From NCBI GenBank assembly GCA_963576785.1, contig OY756140.1, positions 1 to 64,000 on the forward strand: a stretch of DNA of 64,000 bases, written 5' to 3'. The position numbers and the translations under genes were made by a program. This stretch comes from Chlorophyllum brunneum. Taxonomy: Eukaryota > Basidiomycota > Agaricomycetes > Agaricales > Agaricaceae. Shown here piece after piece: positions 1-49,831 of this stretch. Each line of letters starts with the position of its first letter. Position 1 is the first letter of the stretch. The notes under the pieces are model-generated. The model did not search any database. It saw nothing but the letters and a program-made list of their open reading frames with translations, and was not told where the DNA came from.

Positions 1-104
1 ACCCTAACCCTAACCCTAACCCTAACCCTAACCCTAACCCTAACCCTAACCCTAACCCTAACCCTAACCCTAACCCTAACCCTAACCCTAACCCTAACCC
101 TAAC
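1..104. repeat. Telomere repeat tract (CCCTAA)n
   Basis: About 17 uninterrupted copies of CCCTAA run from the first base to 104, the C-rich strand reading inwards as expected at a left chromosome end. The unit is the TTAGGG type common in filamentous fungi. The tract ends abruptly inside an open reading frame of a retroelement, with no subtelomeric spacer. Confidence 0.98.
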
Positions 105-962
105 TGCGACATAGAATGGGTTAGCTCAGCTAGTCAAATGACTTTCCTGGACATGTTGTTGTTCTTCGATGAGAAGAATAGGCTTCAACATAAAGCCTAC
201 AGGAAACAGCTAAACCATTTTGAGCGCATACCATGGGTCAGTTTTCACCCACTCTACGTGAAAAGAGGAACCTTCCTCGGAGAACTGTCACGGGTCGCCA
301 CTTTGTGCAGCCGGTTCCCAGACTATCTGGAAGCTTGCAAAGATGTAGCTTGCATCTACATCGCACGTGGTTACCCCGTCGGTGTTGTTAACTCGTGGTT
401 TAAACAAAACTACAAAGCACGTTGGGAATCGAGGTTGAGAGAGACCCAAGTAGCACGGGCAGACGTGCTTGTGCTTAAAAGCGAGTATAACCCCGCGTGG
501 GATTATGTTAACGCTCAACTTCTTGAGGAACACATAAAACAAGGTTGGCTCAGCGCTTTGCAGCAATGGGCTATCACTGATTCGGATCTCCCACGGGAGA
601 TTCGACAGCGTGAAACCAGTCGGGTACCTCCGTACCAGTACGAAGCCTCGCACGCCGGCGCGCCGCCTTCTGGGGCCGCTGAGCATTTGCTTGGCCTAGG
701 AGCGTATGGGGAATACCTTAGATTGGATAAGACCTCAGTTTTTGACAAGCGTGTGATTGTGAGCAAAAAGCGCACGATTAATCTCTTTGACTTGTCGGCG
801 ATTTGGAAACGCCGTGTTCTTGAATTAACTGATGAAACTATATTTTATGATGACGAAACGGATATCGCCTATCATCGCGATTATGATCGCAATGTTTCAT
901 CGGGTACTTTTCCAGCTATGGACACCGGAGCTGATCCGGAGTACTATGGTCTCACGCAGTAA
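105..962 (+). pseudogene. Truncated reverse transcriptase ORF, C-terminal part
   Basis: The frame ending at the stop at 960-962 is open leftwards through 105 into the telomere repeats, so the ATG at 138 is probably not a real start. Residues just after the telomere (IEW..., then a TFLDML block, then a YRK-N-HFERIPWVSFHP stretch) match the region that follows the catalytic YxDD motif in Penelope-type reverse transcriptases. A thumb-like block follows, with FLGELSRVATLCS and RGYP. The catalytic palm motifs, any N-terminal domain and the start are missing, lost at the telomere. The last 90 residues are acidic and not recognised. No GIY-YIG endonuclease is seen. The remaining ORF cannot encode an active enzyme, although the visible part is otherwise unbroken. 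Confidence 0.8.
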
Positions 963-2160
963 TTCGCCATTAACTGCCCCTTTCTGATGCCTAGCTCAGA
1001 CGGAGGGGGTGGGGCTGAAGAGCGCAGCAGAGCGTGTGTGGCGGTATTGGTCCCGATCTCGATACTCATCGGGTAGGACATGCTTCTATGGCACCGAGTA
1101 ACCGGTGCCGAAGGCCCTAATGCGGGCTGAGTGGATATCGGATACTATCCACGTGGGAGTGTGTGAATTTGTGGGCGAGTAACGGCCCCTCACCTTACGT
1201 CGACGCCAGGGTATGGATACCAATTGGTTAGAGGGGCATAAGCTTCTTGCCGTCCCGGGAAGGACGTTAAAATATAAACGAGGAACTGGGAACCCGCGCC
1301 GGGGAAAACGTCGGCGTCCTTATGGGTAGACGTCGCATAGATGTCGAAAAGAAGTTCCATATTTGTCAACCAACATACCCCTCTGTCCGAATTATCTGTG
1401 ACTGTCACACCTGGGGAAGGGTGCGGGGACGGCCCTTAGTGATGTAAGCGTGGGACAAGCCGCACAAGATGGCCTCTGTCCGTGCGACTAGAAACGGGGA
1501 TACGAAGCCGTAGTTTAGTACCTGGACTCGTGACTTTTGCAGGGGAGCAGGCCTATTTCGGGGGCTGCTGAGACCCGCTGGTGCTTCCGCGAATCGCTTC
1601 GTGGAGTTCCATGGCCGGCCACGGCCTTAAAGGATATAAGTACCCCGGGTAGTTCCCGGTGAGAAGTTTATCCGGACCTTTAGATGGTCATCGGCGATGC
1701 CTAAAGCTCGGCCGATGTATTGTTCGTGAAGATATTCATGGCGGTACGTACTCTATCTACTTCGAGTAAGTGGGGCAGCTTTCTAACCAGTTGGCAGTCA
1801 TAAAAATTCCCACCCAACCCTCACCCTCACCTAACGGTGCCGCTTCGCGGACGGGTTTCGGGATTGGGTGGGAATTTTCACTTTAGCAGATCAAAACTAC
1901 GAAGATAATCTATTTTTAGAGTACACGTTTACGTAAGCAACATTACGTAAGGAGTCACGTGAGTGCTCAGTAAGCATGTTTGTCGCTGTTTACAATTTGA
2001 TCCGATCAACGGAAGCTTCGGAGCTCCGTCGGACCCGAGTAACTATTTTTAGCACGCCGATTCCCATGGAATGTCAAGGAATGACAGCTGTCAACTGTCA
2101 CATCGTGGGTAGAGTGGACTTAGAAGTCCTTCTATCTTAAGAACAAGGTAAAATAAACAA
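963..2160 (+). other. Long structured 3' region of the retroelement
   Basis: These 1.2 kb hold no convincing gene on either strand. Short perfect hairpins are visible: CCCGAT (1052-1057) with ATCGGG (1068-1073), and GGCACCG (1090-1096) with CGGTGCC (1103-1109), before the large inverted repeat at 1803-1878. A long non-coding 3' part fits a retroelement whose RNA end is recognised by its own reverse transcriptase; that role is inferred. Confidence 0.5.
1803..1878. other. 15-bp perfect inverted repeat with 46-base loop
   Basis: AAAATTCCCACCCAA at 1803-1817 is exactly complementary to TTGGGTGGGAATTTT at 1864-1878. After one mismatch the stem can gain two more pairs. The loop contains telomere-like text (CCCTCACCCTCACCTAAC) and a small CCGC-TTC-GCGG hairpin. 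It lies in the 3' part of the telomeric retroelement and may be an RNA structure. A Rho-type or poly-U terminator is not expected in a eukaryote. Confidence 0.7.
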
Positions 2161-2234
2161 GTGCAAAGCGCCTGATGAGCTGTATATAACAGCGAAATCC
2201 TTGTGGGCTAACCCCCCACTCGATTGCGTTGCAC
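2161..2234 (+). ncRNA. Type I hammerhead ribozyme
   Basis: All conserved parts are present in order: the core CTGATGA (2172-2178); stem II GCTGT/ACAGC (2179-2183 with 2189-2193, loop ATATA); the core GAAA (2194-2197); stem III; and the cleavage triplet ATT (2223-2225). Stem III starts with A2197-T2224, T2198-A2223 and C2199-G2222. It continues past a small internal loop as GTGGG (2203-2207) with CCCAC (2215-2219). Stem I pairs 2169-2171 with 2226-2228 and, past a two-base bulge, GTGCAA (2161-2166) with TTGCAC (2229-2234). Stems II and III are closed and stem I open, the type I form reported from Penelope-like elements. Predicted self-cleavage is after 2225. In an element transcript it would trim the RNA close to its 3' end. 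Confidence 0.88.
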
Positions 2235-2269
2235 TACCAGCTCGTCAACTGAGTATCTCCACTATCAAA

Positions 2270-2290
2270 CCCTAACCCTAACCCTAACCC
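2270..2290. repeat. Interstitial telomere tract
   Basis: Three and a half CCCTAA units, in the same orientation as the chromosome end, sit exactly at the inner border of the retroelement. The tract is flanked by TATCAAA (2263-2269) and its reverse complement TTTGATA (2291-2297). The simplest reading is a relic of an older telomere to which the element was added. Confidence 0.9.
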
Positions 2291-3299
2291 TTTGATACCC
2301 TTGACGGGTTGCGAACAGACGGAGCACCTGGACTTCGGTGTCAGTTCTTCATTCCATTTTGTTGAGGTGAATGCGCATACTGTCTCTCGTTGCTGGCATT
2401 GTGTAGCTTCTTTTTTCTGCCGTTTATGAACTCAATGACTCATCATGTATATGATTGGAAAATGACGGCTTACGGTGGTTTTTCTGTGCCTGACGTATTT
2501 CCTTGGGACCCGATTGACAGAGCACGCTTCGATCTGTGTTGACATGGGTAAGATCATCCCGGCTGGTAGTGGTCATACATACAGCTGTGATCTCTCCATC
2601 TCCATTGTGGCTGGTGGGGCTGAACGCGTCGGTCGATAGAGGGACAACCTTGACTGCTGTGATTGGCTGCCAAGTCTCGGTGTTAATGGGGGTGCCATGC
2701 ATTCGTTTGGATGTTGACGGGTGCCGTGCTTCCATGTCCCACAGTGTAGATGACACTACCTTTGGACCGTCGCTTCTAGTAGATCGTACTCATGTTATAC
2801 ATGACTTGTGGCTTGAAAACATTTCGTGAATTTGTCGTGGATTTATTTCTAAGTACAGTTCTAATTGTAGGTATGCCTGCTACTACACCTGATAATATAT
2901 CGGGGCCCATTCGTCACTTGTGGTTCAATCCCTCCCACTCCTGTCTCCTTCCCAACTCTCCTGTCTTGCGATCGCAGCTTGTGTCAGGTATTCTTGAGTA
3001 GTTGTTGAGGTACGGGTGTGCGCGATAGGCGGTCTTCATTTGATGGTGCAGGCGTTCTCTGCCTGCAGGCCAGTGATGGGATGAAGTGAGGGTGGTAGTG
3101 AGGTGGTGAAGGGGGCATTGTGGTGGTGTGTTGGTTGGTTATGATGATGGTCGCCAACATCAACGTGCTGAGCACAGCCTCGGTCGGGGCCATACGGCGT
3201 GTGCCAATTGCCATCCAGGAGATGGCACATTGACCATCAATAATGGGTGATTGGATCACCGGAGATTGATGGCACTGAGGGTCAGGGTGTTTGCGTGTC

Positions 3300-42494: not shown

Positions 42495-43056
42495 TGTTGA
42501 AGTTTCGGACATATTCTAGAAATAGACTATGAAGTCATTATGATAATAATAGACTGATCCGTTACTTTCCAGTAACTTCATTCCGTAGTAACTTCCTATG
42601 AGTTGCTCTGTATACGATGAGAGTCATAAGATTATTCTACATAGTACCAATGACTAGATACTACGTTCCACAGTACTCCGCAGGCACTACGCCGTAGTTA
42701 AAGGGAGTCATAAGGAATAATCCATGTAATGCTAGTATTTTATGTAGTATGACTCGTCTATGTTACAATATGTATATAAACCCCATGTAGCAGACCTAAG
42801 TTCTGCATCTTGTTCAATCGAACAACTTCTTCATCATTGCCTATCTCTTTGAGTACAACACCTCAATCGATTTAATCGACTTCAACCTCTACTTAACTGA
42901 CGTTAACCGCTTCATCAATAATATCTGTCTATCCGAACTACCTTACTACAGGTATCAGATAGAAGCTTATTATCTTGGTGAGTAGACCCTACGTTCTCTC
43001 CCACTGCGTTTACTGCTGCCCCCAGCAAACAACTCGTTACGGTCGTTTCCTCAACA
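42495..43056 (+). repeat. Left LTR, 562 bp
   Basis: It starts TGTTGAAGTTTCGG and ends GTTTCCTCAACA. It lacks the 10-bp TACTTGATAG present in the right LTR. A promoter-like TATATAAA lies at 42773-42780. Confidence 0.97.
42773..42780 (+). promoter_or_regulatory. LTR TATA box
   Basis: TATATAAA within the left LTR, 276 bases before the LTR end; the same sequence is in the right LTR. The likely core promoter of the element. Confidence 0.6.
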
Positions 43057-43074
43057 GGTTATGGGCCCCGGTAG
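43057..43074 (+). other. Primer-binding site, half initiator-tRNA type
   Basis: GGTTATGGGCCCCGG directly follows the left LTR. It is nearly complementary to the anticodon stem-loop of eukaryotic initiator methionine tRNA (CUGGGCCCAUAACC). Copia of Drosophila is known to prime from a cleaved 5' half of that tRNA rather than from the 3' CCA end. The match here implies the same strategy. Confidence 0.7.
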
Positions 43075-43216
43075 CCTTACCGATGGTTAAACCATTATCA
43101 TCCCCTCTAAACCGAGATAGGATGATAGGGCTTTGCCTGACAGAGTTATCCTTATATTTGATCATTGCTGATACGAGAATTTTCTTCTAGAAAGAAATAC
43201 ACTCGACGAAGATATT

Positions 43217-45356
43217 ATGTCTACTAATAATATCGTTGCTGGTTTACCTAAGCTCAATGGGCCAAAGAACTATGCATTCTGGTCTAGAAGGCTTCAGGAT
43301 GCCCTAACCCTCATTTCTGTCACTGGTTCTGACCAGTCCGGATGGACTGTAACAGATCAGAATCTCTCTCCTGAGAATCCTACCACCTTAACGGAGGAGG
43401 ATAGAAGGAGAGAACAATTGAGAGGTCAGGCATTGGCTGTTATTAATGGCACCTTACCTGATTCCCTGTTACTCCATGGGCATGACGCTCCTGAATTCCT
43501 CTGGACTGATTTGAAAACCCACTTTGGGACACCTTCTCCTGCCGCAGTGTATTCAATTCTCCAAAGAATGTTGCAAAAGTGCATTTCAGGGAATCAAGAT
43601 CCAGCAATGGATCTAGCTGAATTGAGAACAATGGCTTCTCAATTAGAAACAGCTAAGGTAAAATTGCCAGAAGTTCTTGGTGCGATGATCACTTTGAACG
43701 CATTACCACCGGATTGGAATGCAGTGGCCCAAACAACATTGGCAAATAATCACGATGTTGTAGACATGACCTGGGAGGTAGTTCAGCAGGCTATAAATGC
43801 TGAGTGGTCAAGACGTGAAGGGTCAAGACCTAACATGTCTAACCCACAAGCATCTTTTGCCGCCACCGCCAACTACCAAACTCGCCCTCAGGGCAATATC
43901 CCCAGGACTCGCCCTGGACCACCCTGGAACTGCTTCCATCCTGGAGGCGATACCAGGGCCAAGCCTGCAAGAGGTCCTCGCCACCCTGCCAATCCGAGTG
44001 GGCAGCCCCCTCAGCCTTCTCCCCCTTCTCCTACCTGGATTAACGTCCAGAAGAAGAAGAAGAAGCCCAAGAAGTGCCAGGGTAAACCCCAGGCCCACAT
44101 GGCGGGCTTCGCCGCTGCCACAGAACTAGCGGTCCATCGTTTCACTAGTCCGGGAATGACCCCCTTCGACCTGATGAGGCGCATGGATGCGCCTCAACCC
44201 GTTCCTGCTCCCACTCCTCTGACCACTCATGTACTTGTGAGTGAGAGACCCAAACCTCTTACTTGGGTTAATCCCAAGAAGGTCCAGCAGGCACGAGAGA
44301 ACACTTGTGCTGAGCTCGAGAAAAAGGTATATGCTGAAGCACGAAACTTATGTTTCACCGCCTTACTCGAAAACTCACTGCGGATTCAACAGGTGACCAC
44401 CTGGCGCGACCGCGTCACTGGTCCTTCGCCCATGCAAATGGCGAAGAAACGTGCCCTCGATTGTTATGATCGACGGATGCACGAGGTCTCTCACCCCTGC
44501 GCCCCGAAAGGACAATCGGTGACACCGCCCGGTGCACCTTCGGTTCCTTCTGGTCACCCCCCAGGTTGTACCTGTGAGGGACACACGAGGGTAAGCAAAT
44601 GGTTCACTAAAAATAGTAACCCCGATATTAACGCGACTCGCGTCCGCTTTTCCTTTCTTTTACCCATTGGTTCGCCTTATACCTTATTGGTTTCCCCCAA
44701 ATTTGGGACGAAAATTAATTTGGTTATGCACCATATGGTAAAGATCCCAAGCATGGACTCTGTCGCCCGGGGTGACTCGCTTGAACCTGGAGAGGTTCAA
44801 CCGTTCTACCTTCCTCCTCGGGAGGAAATAGTAGCTCCAGTTGTCAGGACCTACGAAGAGGAGTTTCCTCCTCTTCCTCGGGCCTCCCCTCCTACGGAGC
44901 GATTCCAGAGTAAGAGATATTCTCTTACTCAGAAGAACAAGACCGCTGATAGGCATCCTGCCACACTTTCAGTGTTGGTAGACGAAGCCTTCAAATGGCT
45001 TGAGAGCGAGAAAGAGGTCGACGATCTCATGGCGCCGGCTCAAGATGTCGCCTACGACATCCGCGACCCCAGGAACCCTGCGAACATCGCAGGACCCTCT
45101 TCTGGGCCTCTCCCAAAGTCTCCGAAGTCCGAACCCTTTGCTTCGGCACCTCAATCTGAGGTGTTACTCGGACTCTTGTCGACTGACTATGGGAGCGACT
45201 TCAAGAAGAAGGGAGGAGCTGGGTATGTGATCAATTCGATCTCAGATACTCTTACTAACCCTGATACACAGTCCTGTCACCAATATACCGACCGGCCGTC
45301 TTTGCAAGAAGAAGGGTAAGGGCAAGGGGAAGGGACGTCGGGGGCCGGGCTTGTAA
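43217..45356 (+). CDS. gag: Copia Gag polyprotein
   Basis: The frame from 43217 encodes a copia-type Gag: LNGPKNYAFWSRRLQDAL near the start, LWTDLKTHFGTPSPAAVYSI, and LPEVLGAMITLNALPPDWN. A canonical CCHC knuckle is not seen; a degenerate WNCFHPGGDTRAKP lies where one would be. A long Pro-rich, probably disordered region follows. Unspliced, the frame stops at 45317-45319 (700 residues). If the intron-like 45223-45271 is removed, it continues with PVTNIPTGRLC and the basic tail KKKGKGKGKGRRGPGL to a stop at 45354-45356, which looks like a nucleic-acid-binding end. I favour the spliced form for Gag. Confidence 0.8.
45223..45271 (+). other. Intron-like segment within gag
   Basis: GTATGT donor, a perfect CTTACTAAC branch motif (45251-45259) 12 bases before the CACAG acceptor, and 49 bases long: the profile of a normal intron of this fungus. 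Removal changes frame and gives Gag a basic C-terminus; retention keeps the frame of the protease ORF but meets a stop at 45317. Confidence 0.65.
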
Positions 45357-45463
45357 CTACACTATCAGGATCTTTAGGATCCCATAATAATGTTGTTTCT
45401 TCGTGCGAATCGATAAATGAGAAGTGTTTTAACACTTCTCAATTTTCTTATTTCTCCACGCGC

Positions 45464-46204
45464 ATGCCCGATCAGTATTTAAGAGTACCGGATCAATTTA
45501 GATCTCAATCGCTAAGCAATGATCAAAGCATAACGCCACTAGAAGAATATAGTGACGTATGGTTATTAGACTCAGGGGCATCATGTCATTATACCCCTTA
45601 TACGGAAGACTTTATCAACTTCAAAGAACTCGAAGTTTCGATCCCAATTAAGACTGTAGGAGCTCAAAGCCCCTACCTTAATGCGGTTGGTCTTGGCACA
45701 GTTATGCTTAAGCATAGAGTCTATAACGGGAAGACTGACAGCATTCAACCAACGCAGATATTAATATATCCAGTCTTCCTTTTGAAAGGAACCTCTGAAC
45801 GACTAGTGTCAGTGGGACAGTTATGCCAGGATGGCAAAACTGTTAGAACAGATGCCAACGAATCAGTAGTAGTTGATAGCGAAGGAAATGCTATTCTTCA
45901 AGCATATCCTTCAGCAAGTCGCAACACTACTTTACATTTTGTTAATACAAAAATTGTACATTCGGAACAAGCAGCTATGACTGCGGATCCGATCGTTGGC
46001 TATAAAGTTGTACATGCGAGATTAGGACATCCCTCTAATCATATCCTCAATCACTTTGAGAAAAATACGATTGGGTTTACTCCGGTGCGGATTCCCGAGC
46101 AAAAGCCAGTCTGTGACGGTTGTGCCAAGGGAAAGATGCACCAGAAACCCTTTAGAGAGAACCCTACACGCGCAAAGCGAAAGAATACACTCAGATTTAG
46201 TTGA
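45464..46204 (+). CDS. pol: Copia protease and pre-integrase segment
   Basis: Same frame as the unspliced gag, open from just after the stop at 45317. The aspartic protease signature is WLLDSGASCHYTP. Downstream is the GAG-pre-integrase zinc module, VVHARLGHPSNHILNHF with CDGCAKGKMHQKPF, giving the HHCC pattern. The frame ends at 46204, about 30 bases after it departs from the family pattern (TRAKRKNTL). The continuation is in another frame, overlapping by 149 bases. The Met at 45464 is simply the first in-frame ATG. Confidence 0.85.
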   Translation: MPDQYLRVPDQFRSQSLSNDQSITPLEEYSDVWLLDSGASCHYTPYTEDFINFKELEVSIPIKTVGAQSPYLNAVGLGTVMLKHRVYNGKTDSIQPTQILIYPVFLLKGTSERLVSVGQLCQDGKTVRTDANESVVVDSEGNAILQAYPSASRNTTLHFVNTKIVHSEQAAMTADPIVGYKVVHARLGHPSNHILNHFEKNTIGFTPVRIPEQKPVCDGCAKGKMHQKPFRENPTRAKRKNTLRFS

Positions 46205-49200
46205 ACTTCCGATTCTTTCTTACCATAAATATAAATGGGTCATGACCATAATGGACGACTTTTCTTCTCATGGATGGATTCGCTTTCTCCATAAGAAATC
46301 AGAAGCAGCAGAAGAAATGAAAAATTTTATTGCCTTAATTCAGACTCAATACGAGACTAAATTAAAATATCTCTGCACTGATAGAGGAGGAGAGTATGCA
46401 ACTAACGAGTTGCAATCTCATTTGCGCTCATTAGGGATTATACATGAGACTAGTGCACCACACATACACCAACAAAATGGTCGAGCAGAACGCTTGAACC
46501 GAACCCTAATGGATAAAGCAGAAGCCATGCGGCATCATGCTTGTATTCCTGATGGTTGGTGGGAGTTTTCTATAGATCATGCAATACATATCTATAATAA
46601 AACACCAGTATCACGGCTCATGTGGAAAACACCCTATGAAGTGTTGAATCAGAAGATTCCAGACATCTCTAAAGAGAGAGTCTTTGGCTGCGGTGCTTAT
46701 GTCTTTCTCCCAAAAGAGATAAGAGACAATAAACTGATAGCGAAGTCAGAACTCATGATTTTCCTTGGTTGGACATCAGACAGGAAAAATTATCGTTTCA
46801 TGAGGCACCTAAACGGAAATGTAATCTATACATCTCCAACAGCTGTATTCAGCGAAGAACACTTCCCTAAATGTGTTGGGAAGAAGCGAGAAGAATGGAT
46901 GAACCAACCATCATCTTCTACTTCTCGAAGTACACCTTCGGAAGTTATTGTCTTCCATGCTCCAGATCCATCTACTGGTTTACCTATTGATAAACCACCA
47001 AGCCCTATTCCCCGAACTTCTCCCGGAAGTTCTCCGGAGGAAAGGACTTATAAATCTGTACATGGACAAATTCCAACTCCTTTCCCTGAACCTAAAAAGA
47101 ATAAAGGAAAGGAAAAAGTACTGAATATCGATACCGATGTTCAGGAGGAGTGGGATGGTATTGTGCAAAATATTCTCTTTCCACCAAGAGAAGCACAAAC
47201 ACCAGAAGACGATGACAGTGATAGATTATCATATACTGATCCACCCAATCACCCTGAAGGTCTGAACCATCCGCCTTCTCCAAGAGATGATCCGGATGTA
47301 CAACCATTCATACCCTATACCCCTGTTGAAGATGATCGGGATGCTGGTCCTTCTGTACCACGAGGTCACTCGGATCAAATACCGGTTCCTGAAATACCTC
47401 AGAGACCGCAAAGAACCAGAAAAGTACCTGAACGTCCAGGAAACTTCTATGGTTCTACAAAGCATCCGACCAAAATACTCCAGGACTATGAGATGTTCCA
47501 ACCTCCTAAGTCGAAATTAACAAGTTCTACAAGTAGACTTGTTAGACAAATTCGATCAGAGGCTTCCAAACCTGGAATAATCGATAGACGTTCTCAGCAT
47601 GAAGCTTCTACATTAGAAGACTTATGCAGAGAAGGAGGAGTAGGGATGATCGATTATCTGTGCGCTCAAAAAGTCAAATCTCCATTAGTTCCTATTTCTT
47701 TCAAGGATCTAAATCGACTACCATCAGAAGAGAAATCTAAATGGTGGAAAGCGTGCTTGGAAGAGTTAAATTCACTCAAAGAAAGACATGTTTATGACTT
47801 AGCTAAACTTCCGCCTGGAAGAAAAGCTGTCAAAAATAGATGGGTCTTTACACCCAAGTCAGACGGTCGATACCGTGCTCGACTAGTAGCAAAAGGATTC
47901 TCTCAGATAGAGGGAATTGATTACGATGAACTATTTTCACCAGTAGTCCGTTATGAGACAGCACGACTCATATTTGCAGTCACTGCCCTCAATGATTGGG
48001 AGATGCTCAGTTTAGATGTTAAAACTGCTTATCTCTACGGAAAACTGGATGAAGAACTCTATATGGAACTTCCAGAAGGTTTCAATACAGGTCGTGGTAA
48101 TTTGGTTTGGAAATTAAACCGAGCCATTTATGGATTAAAGCAATCTGGACGACAATGGTGGAAGGAATTGACTAAGTCAATGACCGACCTAGGATTTGTC
48201 AGATCCAAACTAGATGCTGGAGTCTATTATTACTACGACCCTGAAACCAAAGAGCTTATTATAGCTCTGGTCTATGTAGATGACTCAATGTTCGTTGGAA
48301 TTAGAGGCTCTAGACTTCTATATGAGAAGCGAGCACTCTTTATGAAGAAATGGGAATGCCGAGACCTTGGTCCAACCAAAGAGTTCCTTGGTATGAAGAT
48401 TTCGCGAAATCCTATAAACCGATCAATTACCCTAGACCAAATGGATTATCTAGGAAAAGTACTTGATCGATTTAATATAATTGGAAAAGAAGAAATACCA
48501 TTACCAAATGGATTTATCTTCGAATCCAATACAGGAAAAGTGACACCTGACTTCATAAAGAGGTATCAACAATTAGTAGGATCAGTTATGTATCTGATGA
48601 TAGGCAGTCGGCCCGACATAGCTTTCGCCACTGTCAAATTATCACAACATATGACCAATCCAACTAAAGCGCATTATAATGCAGGCTTACATTTGCTAAA
48701 GTATCTTAATGCTACTCGCAAATATAGAATTACCTATAATGGAAGTTCTATGCAAGGCCTAAATGCCTTTTCCGACTCTGATTGGGCTAGTGATCCAATT
48801 AGTTGTAAATCTGTAACTGGATATTTCTGTTTGTTAGCCAGTGGAGCTATCGCTTGGTTAAGTAGGAAACAGAAAACTGTTGCATTATCTTCCACTGAAG
48901 CCGAATATATGGCTTTGTCAGATTGCAGTCGACAACTCGTTTGGACTGTCAATTTGTTGGAAGAAATTGGTATCCAATCATTGGCCCCTTATCTCTTCAG
49001 TGATAATGAGGGTTCAATATTTTGGGCCAAGAATCTAGTAACAAAAAAACGATCAAAACATGTCGACGTCAAATACCATTACATTCGTGATTTGGTAGAA
49101 GATGGAAAGATTGAAATATTCTCTGTGAAAGGCACTGAAAATCCTGCCGATATTCTCACAAAGAATTTAGACAAAATTAAATTCAATCTATTCCGACCTC

Positions 49201-49223
49201 GCCTTGGCTTGACGTTTGAGTGA
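46056..49223 (+). CDS. pol: Copia integrase core, reverse transcriptase and RNase H
   Basis: 1,055 residues, meaningful from about residue 40 (ERIHSDLVELP). The integrase catalytic triad is seen as MDDFSSHGWIRF, CTDRGGEYATNEL and QQNGRAERLNRTL. A variable linker is followed by reverse transcriptase blocks NRWVFTPKSDGRYRARLVAKG, LDVKTAYLYGKLDEELYM and the catalytic YVDDSMFVG. RNase H has ALSSTEAEYMALSDC and SDNEGSIFWAKN. The last residues (TKNLDKIKFNLFRPRLGL) are typical of copia. Its first part overlaps the protease ORF; one base near 46173 (in GCAAAGC) appears to be extra, so translation from genomic RNA would need a +1 shift, or the copy is mutated. Confidence 0.92.
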   Translation: MRKIRLGLLRCGFPSKSQSVTVVPRERCTRNPLERTLHAQSERIHSDLVELPILSYHKYKWVMTIMDDFSSHGWIRFLHKKSEAAEEMKNFIALIQTQYETKLKYLCTDRGGEYATNELQSHLRSLGIIHETSAPHIHQQNGRAERLNRTLMDKAEAMRHHACIPDGWWEFSIDHAIHIYNKTPVSRLMWKTPYEVLNQKIPDISKERVFGCGAYVFLPKEIRDNKLIAKSELMIFLGWTSDRKNYRFMRHLNGNVIYTSPTAVFSEEHFPKCVGKKREEWMNQPSSSTSRSTPSEVIVFHAPDPSTGLPIDKPPSPIPRTSPGSSPEERTYKSVHGQIPTPFPEPKKNKGKEKVLNIDTDVQEEWDGIVQNILFPPREAQTPEDDDSDRLSYTDPPNHPEGLNHPPSPRDDPDVQPFIPYTPVEDDRDAGPSVPRGHSDQIPVPEIPQRPQRTRKVPERPGNFYGSTKHPTKILQDYEMFQPPKSKLTSSTSRLVRQIRSEASKPGIIDRRSQHEASTLEDLCREGGVGMIDYLCAQKVKSPLVPISFKDLNRLPSEEKSKWWKACLEELNSLKERHVYDLAKLPPGRKAVKNRWVFTPKSDGRYRARLVAKGFSQIEGIDYDELFSPVVRYETARLIFAVTALNDWEMLSLDVKTAYLYGKLDEELYMELPEGFNTGRGNLVWKLNRAIYGLKQSGRQWWKELTKSMTDLGFVRSKLDAGVYYYYDPETKELIIALVYVDDSMFVGIRGSRLLYEKRALFMKKWECRDLGPTKEFLGMKISRNPINRSITLDQMDYLGKVLDRFNIIGKEEIPLPNGFIFESNTGKVTPDFIKRYQQLVGSVMYLMIGSRPDIAFATVKLSQHMTNPTKAHYNAGLHLLKYLNATRKYRITYNGSSMQGLNAFSDSDWASDPISCKSVTGYFCLLASGAIAWLSRKQKTVALSSTEAEYMALSDCSRQLVWTVNLLEEIGIQSLAPYLFSDNEGSIFWAKNLVTKKRSKHVDVKYHYIRDLVEDGKIEIFSVKGTENPADILTKNLDKIKFNLFRPRLGLTFE

Positions 49224-49245
49224 TTAAAAAACTCTATATCAATAC

Positions 49246-49259
49246 AGAGCAAGGAGGAG
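49246..49259 (+). other. Polypurine tract
   Basis: AGAGCAAGGAGGAG lies immediately upstream of the right LTR, where plus-strand priming starts in LTR retroelements. Confidence 0.8.
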
Positions 49260-49831
49260 TGTTGAAGTTTCGGACATATTCTAGAAATAGACTATGAAGT
49301 CATTATGATAATAATAGACTGATCCGTTACTTTCCAGTAACTTCATTCCGTAGTAACTTCCTATGAGTTGCTCTGTATACAATGAGAGTCATAAGTACTT
49401 GATAGATTATTCTACATAGTACCAATGACTAGATACTACGTTCCACAGTACTCCGCAGGCACTACGCCGCAGTTAAAGGGAGTCATAAGGAACAATCCAT
49501 GCAATGCTAGTATTTTATGTAGTATGACTCGTCTATGTTACAATATGTATATAAACCCCATGTAGCAGACCTAAGTTCTGCATCTTGTTCAATCGAACAA
49601 CTTCTTCATCATTGCCTATCTCTTTGAGTACAACACCTCAATCGATTTAATCGACTTCGACCTCTACTTAACTGACGTTAACCGCTTCATCAATAATATC
49701 TGTCTATCCGAACTACCTTACTACAGGTATCAGATAGAAGCTTATTATCTTGGTGAGTAGACCCTACGTTCTCTCCCACTGCGTTTACTGCTGCCCCCAG
49801 CAAACAACTCGTTACGGTCGTTTCCTCAACA
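49260..49831 (+). repeat. Right LTR, 572 bp
   Basis: Same as the left LTR apart from five transitions and an extra TACTTGATAG after GAGAGTCATAAG. Ends TCAACA, followed by the TSD TCTCC. Confidence 0.97.

Follow-up and report, generated by a model that had tools for sequence, protein, structure and literature searches.

The first 64,000 nucleotides (nt) of contig OY756140.1 of the agaric Chlorophyllum brunneum (GenBank assembly GCA_963576785.1, forward strand), hereafter the window, open with 17 CCCTAA repeats, which are the left telomere of this contig (C2). They are followed by the 3' part of a Penelope-like retroelement (PLE) that carries a hammerhead ribozyme (HHR) motif at 2161-2234. The explanation we prefer, to which we give a probability of about 75%, is that this is the 3' end of a telomere-attaching PLE with a conserved hammerhead fold whose cutting is mostly off. 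The main evidence is the anatomy of the motif, its 11 copies on chromosome ends, the short telomeric tail that follows each copy and the truncated chromosome ends to which most copies are joined.

A type I hammerhead is defined by the strands CUGANGA and GAA, the pair A15.1-U16.1 and the nucleotide H17, arranged around three helices and entered through stem I. All of these are found in 2161-2234, the core nucleotides are all canonical and the parts follow in order; reading the sequence confirmed, position by position, the list of parts in a preliminary description of this DNA. Stem I has nine pairs, in which 2161-2166 and 2169-2171 are paired with 2226-2234, and an AG bulge at 2167-2168. Stem II (2179-2183/2189-2193) carries the loop ATATA (2184-2188), is closed by a G-C pair next to the core and is followed on its 3' side by GAA at 2194-2196. 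Stem III is composed of ATC/GAT (2197-2199/2222-2224), a 3x2 internal loop and GTGGG/CCCAC (2203-2207/2215-2219), with the loop at 2208-2214. The pair A15.1-U16.1 is present and H17 is a U, and cleavage is predicted after T2225, between ATT and GCG. By its structure, as read from the sequence, 2161-2234 is a type I hammerhead, though under the Rfam cut-off.

Both strands of the window were searched with a structural descriptor, which gave one match, 2161-2234. The preliminary description had judged a chance assembly of the parts to be very unlikely, and resampling the window 60 times with a first-order Markov model agrees with this: there was one match at the loosest setting (stem II at least 4, stem III at least 3 and stem I at least 3) and none at two stricter settings. 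Over 199 kb, comprising the window and 14 further chromosome ends on both strands, the descriptor returned exactly the 11 motif copies. The simpler pattern CTGATGAG-N6-18-CGAAA occurs at 34 places in the genome, of which 11 are the motif copies and the other 23 have at most 3 stem II pairs; its reversed control pattern has 20 genome matches. The 74-nt motif folds better than 199 out of 200 shuffles (z -2.8). Four variants are seen within the motif, three at unpaired positions and one changing G-C to G-U, which fits the fold and is weak evidence for it.

Several results weigh against a hammerhead. No Rfam family reached its gathering score anywhere in the window. The covariance search proposed in the preliminary description, run on 2150-2245, did yield a hammerhead, the family HH9, as the sole row listed at E<=10 among 4227 families (one more match of the same clan is omitted), but it scored 14.8 bits where the cut-off is 52, with an E value of 0.2, so the match is weak and below threshold. 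A genome search with Hammerhead_1, in which 72 of 6124 candidates were scored, did not list this motif; it listed two weak matches elsewhere, which scored 19.3 and 17.9 bits and are also under the cut-off. Furthermore, when the motif is folded on its own the minimum-energy structure is a different one, with the hammerhead 2.7 kcal/mol above it, and the copies are 98-100% alike, so that there is almost no covariation. The Rfam cut-off is a detection threshold and stands outside the structural definition of a hammerhead. A likeness due to chance would account for the low Rfam score and for the different stand-alone fold. It is nevertheless very improbable, given the one match in 60 resampled windows and none at stricter settings, the restriction of the descriptor matches in the 199 kb to motif copies, and the location of the motif where telomeric PLEs are reported to bear an HHR.

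The host of the motif is an endonuclease-lacking PLE of the telomere-attaching kind. It encodes a telomerase-like reverse transcriptase (RT), which is the mark of a PLE, and its two long frames, both incomplete on the 5' side, gave no match to the GIY-YIG endonuclease at E<=1. The nearest named relatives of the RT, among the best 120 of 191 hits, are from Agaricus bisporus (52%) and Leucoagaricus (48-49%). With this protein as the sole query, no PLE family beyond the nine RT copies of this one was detected in the genome at E<=0.001. A sequence-profile search of the PDB returned nothing at E<=0.01, and scanning viral_contigs with the protein and with an alignment gave 19 and 58 stretches that fit a pattern, of which none was confirmed. 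The RT frame runs open into telomeric repeats in the C2 copy as well as in the three longest copies; the longest copy has about 4.4 kb, and no complete 5' end was seen. A retrozyme, which is a small, non-coding HHR element, was also considered and is ruled out, since this element encodes an RT.

Looking for the same motif at other chromosome ends, as the preliminary description had suggested, we found 11 copies on 9 chromosome ends, two each on C1 and C9, and an exact-pattern scan of the genome located the motif at no other place. The element copies always read inwards from the telomere, and all 11 are truncated on the 5' side, where telomeric repeats form a cap. In the nine outer copies this cap is the terminal telomere; in the two inner ones (C1L_b and C9R_b) it is the tail of the adjoining copy, in a head-to-tail arrangement at the left end of C1 and the right end of C9. 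The copies on C13 (L024:105-130) and C4 (L015:95-125) are truncated at a nearly identical 5' point, perhaps owing to a shared subtelomere or to a preferred RT stop.

On the 3' side every copy terminates in AAACCCTAACCC..., a run of 20-32 nt (mean 25.5, greedy pattern) with the same starting phase. This tail is made of C-strand telomeric repeats and begins 40-41 nt beyond the cut site in 11 out of 11 copies. The preliminary description had placed the hammerhead where a telomeric PLE has its inner, 3' terminus and near the sequence that would meet the chromosome end; both placements are supported, and telomere-complementary sequence indeed adjoins the motif. None of the tails is a remnant of a full-length telomere, and two of them (C9R_b and C11R) contain irregular units.

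For nine of the 11 copies we found a homologue spanning the joint between the tail and the chromosome. Six of these homologues lie in chromosome-end repeats, two in older element copies and one in the long terminal repeat (LTR) of a copia element; the last concerns the C12 copy, which is attached inside a copia-type repeat of a type also present at about 42732-49831 of the window. At these joints the target sequence is truncated where its homologue runs on, and therefore the element attached to ends whose telomere was lost or nearly so. The number of bases shared at the joints is 0 to about 4, as counted by eye. Not all joints are equally favourable to this reading: C1L_b and C8L have no intact flank homologue in the sequence examined, the joint homologue of C4L is just 82% alike, and the C1L_a joint has a few extra palindromic bases between the tail and the homology. 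The chromosome end under C1L_a (L012:3815-3845, C1) contains a small palindrome, TCCTACCCGAT..ATCGGGTAGGA, which looks like snap-back copying of the 3' end before attachment.

A further point on the same side is that the tail may be encoded by the element or may have been added by telomerase before insertion. Telomerase heals breaks via short homology, and it could first have extended a broken end by some 3-4 repeats, the element then inserting on this nascent telomere. The irregular units noted above are similar to an additional A or C that is present in two terminal caps. The tails of all 11 copies are, however, confined to a narrow range of lengths, far under the one long internal telomere, on C4 (108 nt), and the terminal telomeres, for which 15 ends gave 93-118 nt. 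We regard a host-made tail as quite possible, if less than probable; this alternative bears on nothing but the tail and does not conflict with the other parts of the preferred explanation.

Both sides of the cut site, together with the telomeric tail, are present in 11 out of 11 copies, so the RNA templates were uncut at 2225. The preliminary description had proposed that the ribozyme processes the element RNA near its 3' end. As a step towards insertion this is not supported by the copies, all of which run beyond the cut, and it is also opposed by the predicted fold of the full 3' end, in which the catalytic core is buried. That the hammerhead cuts the 3' end of the element RNA as a required step before insertion is thus improbable, even with a core that is intact in every copy.

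Another role for cutting would be in tandem or read-through transcripts, where the ribozyme of an upstream copy would define the 5' terminus of the following copy's RNA. This possibility is inferred from the terminal repeats of other PLEs, whose pseudo-LTRs contain HHRs (PMC7761336, PMC11167929), and the head-to-tail copies on C1 and C9 are in line with it. Tandem copies are found at only 2 of the 9 ends, however, and the frame of the three longest copies is open into telomeric repeats, so that no 5' end or 5' ribozyme is observable. In addition, an RNA cut at both ribozymes would be without the 3' tail that every copy has. We consider such a role somewhat unlikely, and it does not exclude the preferred explanation of a telomere-attaching 3' end with a mostly silent hammerhead.

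A candidate for what may silence the hammerhead lies just downstream. The bases at 2238-2247 are complementary to 2173-2182, which comprise the core and the 5' strand of stem II, and the predicted pairing leaves neither stem I nor stem II in place. For 11 out of 11 copies the predicted 3'-end fold has the core paired. The gap between the hammerhead-constrained and the full ensemble is 4.1-5.9 kcal/mol for RNA ending at 2234 and 7.9-12.6 kcal/mol when 2238-2247 is included, in energy models that give no credit to the hammerhead core. Among shuffles the observed gap was reached in 35 of 2000 cases and the duplex energy in 7 of 2000; random 32-nt pieces of the window reached them in 53 and 43 of 1988 cases, respectively, and pieces of the 3' untranslated region (UTR) reached the duplex energy in 8 of 297. 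The helix was noticed post hoc, which together with null frequencies of 0.35-2.7% weighs against it and makes it a lead, not a result. The predicted pairing is therefore no more than suggestive of a ribozyme that is switched off in the full 3' end. Taken further, the hammerhead could be self-repressed: the antisense at 2238-2247 would lock the core and so keep the telomere-annealing tail, and the RT protein, or copying through 2238-2247 by the RT, would free the core and permit cutting. We rate this fuller model as unlikely. No account of a self-repressed PLE hammerhead was found in the literature searched, which comprised in part the best-ranked papers and included few subscription papers.

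A zone with many variable sites lies between this helix and the tail. Variable columns number 7 out of 17 in 2250-2266, compared with 6 out of 420 upstream (Fisher 5e-8, the columns not being independent events). An error-prone start of the RT was considered as the cause, and is weakened because variable sites are clustered a second time in these copies, at 1587-1604. The haplotypes of the body (1106-1715) and of the tail (2250-2266) are incompatible by the four-gamete test in the 10 copies with body sequence. An exchange of tails mediated by the ribozyme was rejected as an explanation, because the exchange falls within an interval of about 500 bp and can be put down to ordinary recombination of subtelomeres.

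Table 1. Features of the element and its telomeric end in the window.
Feature	Position	Strand	Basis or remark
Part before the RT frame	1..104	.	Sequence read
RT frame, 3' part	105..962	+	99% match to residues 603-889 of the C13 copy
Element 3' UTR	963..2160	+	
Inverted repeat in the 3' UTR	1803..1878	+	18-nt, 94% complementary, arms 40 nt apart
Type I hammerhead ribozyme (cleavage predicted after T2225)	2161..2234	+	Sequence, descriptor scans, weak Rfam match
Catalytic core strand CTGATGA	2172..2178	+	Sequence read
Candidate off-switch CAGCTCGTCA	2238..2247	+	Complementary to 2173-2182 (10 bp, one G-U)
Variable zone	2250..2266	+	7/17 columns differ among 11 copies
Telomeric tail AAACCCTAACCCTAACCCTAACCCT, element 3' end, then joined chromosome end	2267..2291	+	

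Between the arms of the inverted repeat listed in Table 1 there is a C-rich, telomere-like stretch.

In its fungal host, its telomeric location and the lack of a detected GIY-YIG domain the element resembles the endonuclease-deficient PLEs of fungi, Coprina and relatives, reportedly described by Gladyshev and Arkhipova in 2007. Cervera and De la Pena (2014) reportedly found monomer-stable hammerhead variants in fungal PLEs. PLEs of Agaricus bisporus have been reported as linked to telomeres (PMC7473861), and all available PLE sequences are stated to carry hammerheads (PMC6155905), whose role in PLEs is described as unknown (PMC7761336). Endonuclease-lacking PLEs have been proposed to prime at deprotected telomeres or breaks (PMC3846280).

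The end structure seen here is already published for the Terminons of bdelloid rotifers (PMC6431247), and what is new is the host and the example. Like the Terminons/Athena, the agaric element is an endonuclease-lacking telomeric PLE, with a 3'-terminal hammerhead followed by reverse-complement telomeric repeats (here in 11 out of 11 copies), a 5' truncation capped by telomeric repeats and copies arranged head to tail. It differs in the repeat of the tail, which is CCCTAA here and ACACCC/TCACCC in Terminons, and in the start of the tail 40-41 nt beyond the cut site. Terminons include a giant form of tens of kb with accessory genes; no accessory genes were seen in the truncated agaric copies. 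A further difference lies in the target ends, which in 9 out of 11 cases are truncated subtelomere, LTR or older copies. Helix III is long in this hammerhead, while HHRs of PLEs and Terminons are described as minimal, without helix III or loop contacts (PMC7761336).

A PLE bearing a hammerhead is also known from Anolis, the Poseidon-type element PAc (PMC11167929). PAc is set apart from the agaric element by its endonuclease, its preference for AT-rich DNA targets and a ribozyme that overlaps the beginning of the open reading frame. The PAc ribozyme showed no cutting without added protein, and mutants left insertion in vitro unaffected (PMC11167929). The uncut templates of all 11 agaric copies agree with such a dispensable ribozyme.

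The genome assembly has 38.9 Mb in 14 contigs, 13 of which have telomeric repeats at the left end; the right ends examined are those of C9 and C11. The 14th contig, with 59 kb, codes for a mitochondrial-type cytochrome b and also carries cox2, according to our own reading of the frame. Among named species the best match to this cytochrome b is that of Leucoagaricus naucinus, with 91% identity. The internal telomere on C4 (L015:4559-4666) consists of 18 CCCTAA repeats, lies about 340 bp inside the tail of the element and is possibly a buried former chromosome end. The copia-type retrotransposon at 42732-49831 of the window has gag and pol frames flanked by two direct repeats that resemble LTRs, with matched stretches at 42732-43057 and 49507-49831.

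In the preferred explanation, the telomerase-like RT would prime on an exposed chromosome 3' end and copying would begin in or beside the short CCCUAA tail. The complementary DNA would extend to a variable 5' point, and telomerase would then cap it. The hammerhead would be a true ribozyme fold that all copies have retained. In the complete 3' end it probably cuts rarely or not at all, because ten downstream bases are predicted to be able to pair with its core. If cutting is off or rare, the fold would more likely serve as a structured recognition and spacer end beside the tail, and cutting may be reserved for other contexts, namely nascent or protein-bound RNA. The 11 near-identical copies with their exact junctions show that the templates had not been cut at the ribozyme, that the ends to which the element attached had kept little or nothing of their telomere, and that the telomeric tail varies little in length. 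If the self-repression outlined above were true, the family would have a ribozyme switch tied to telomere attachment.
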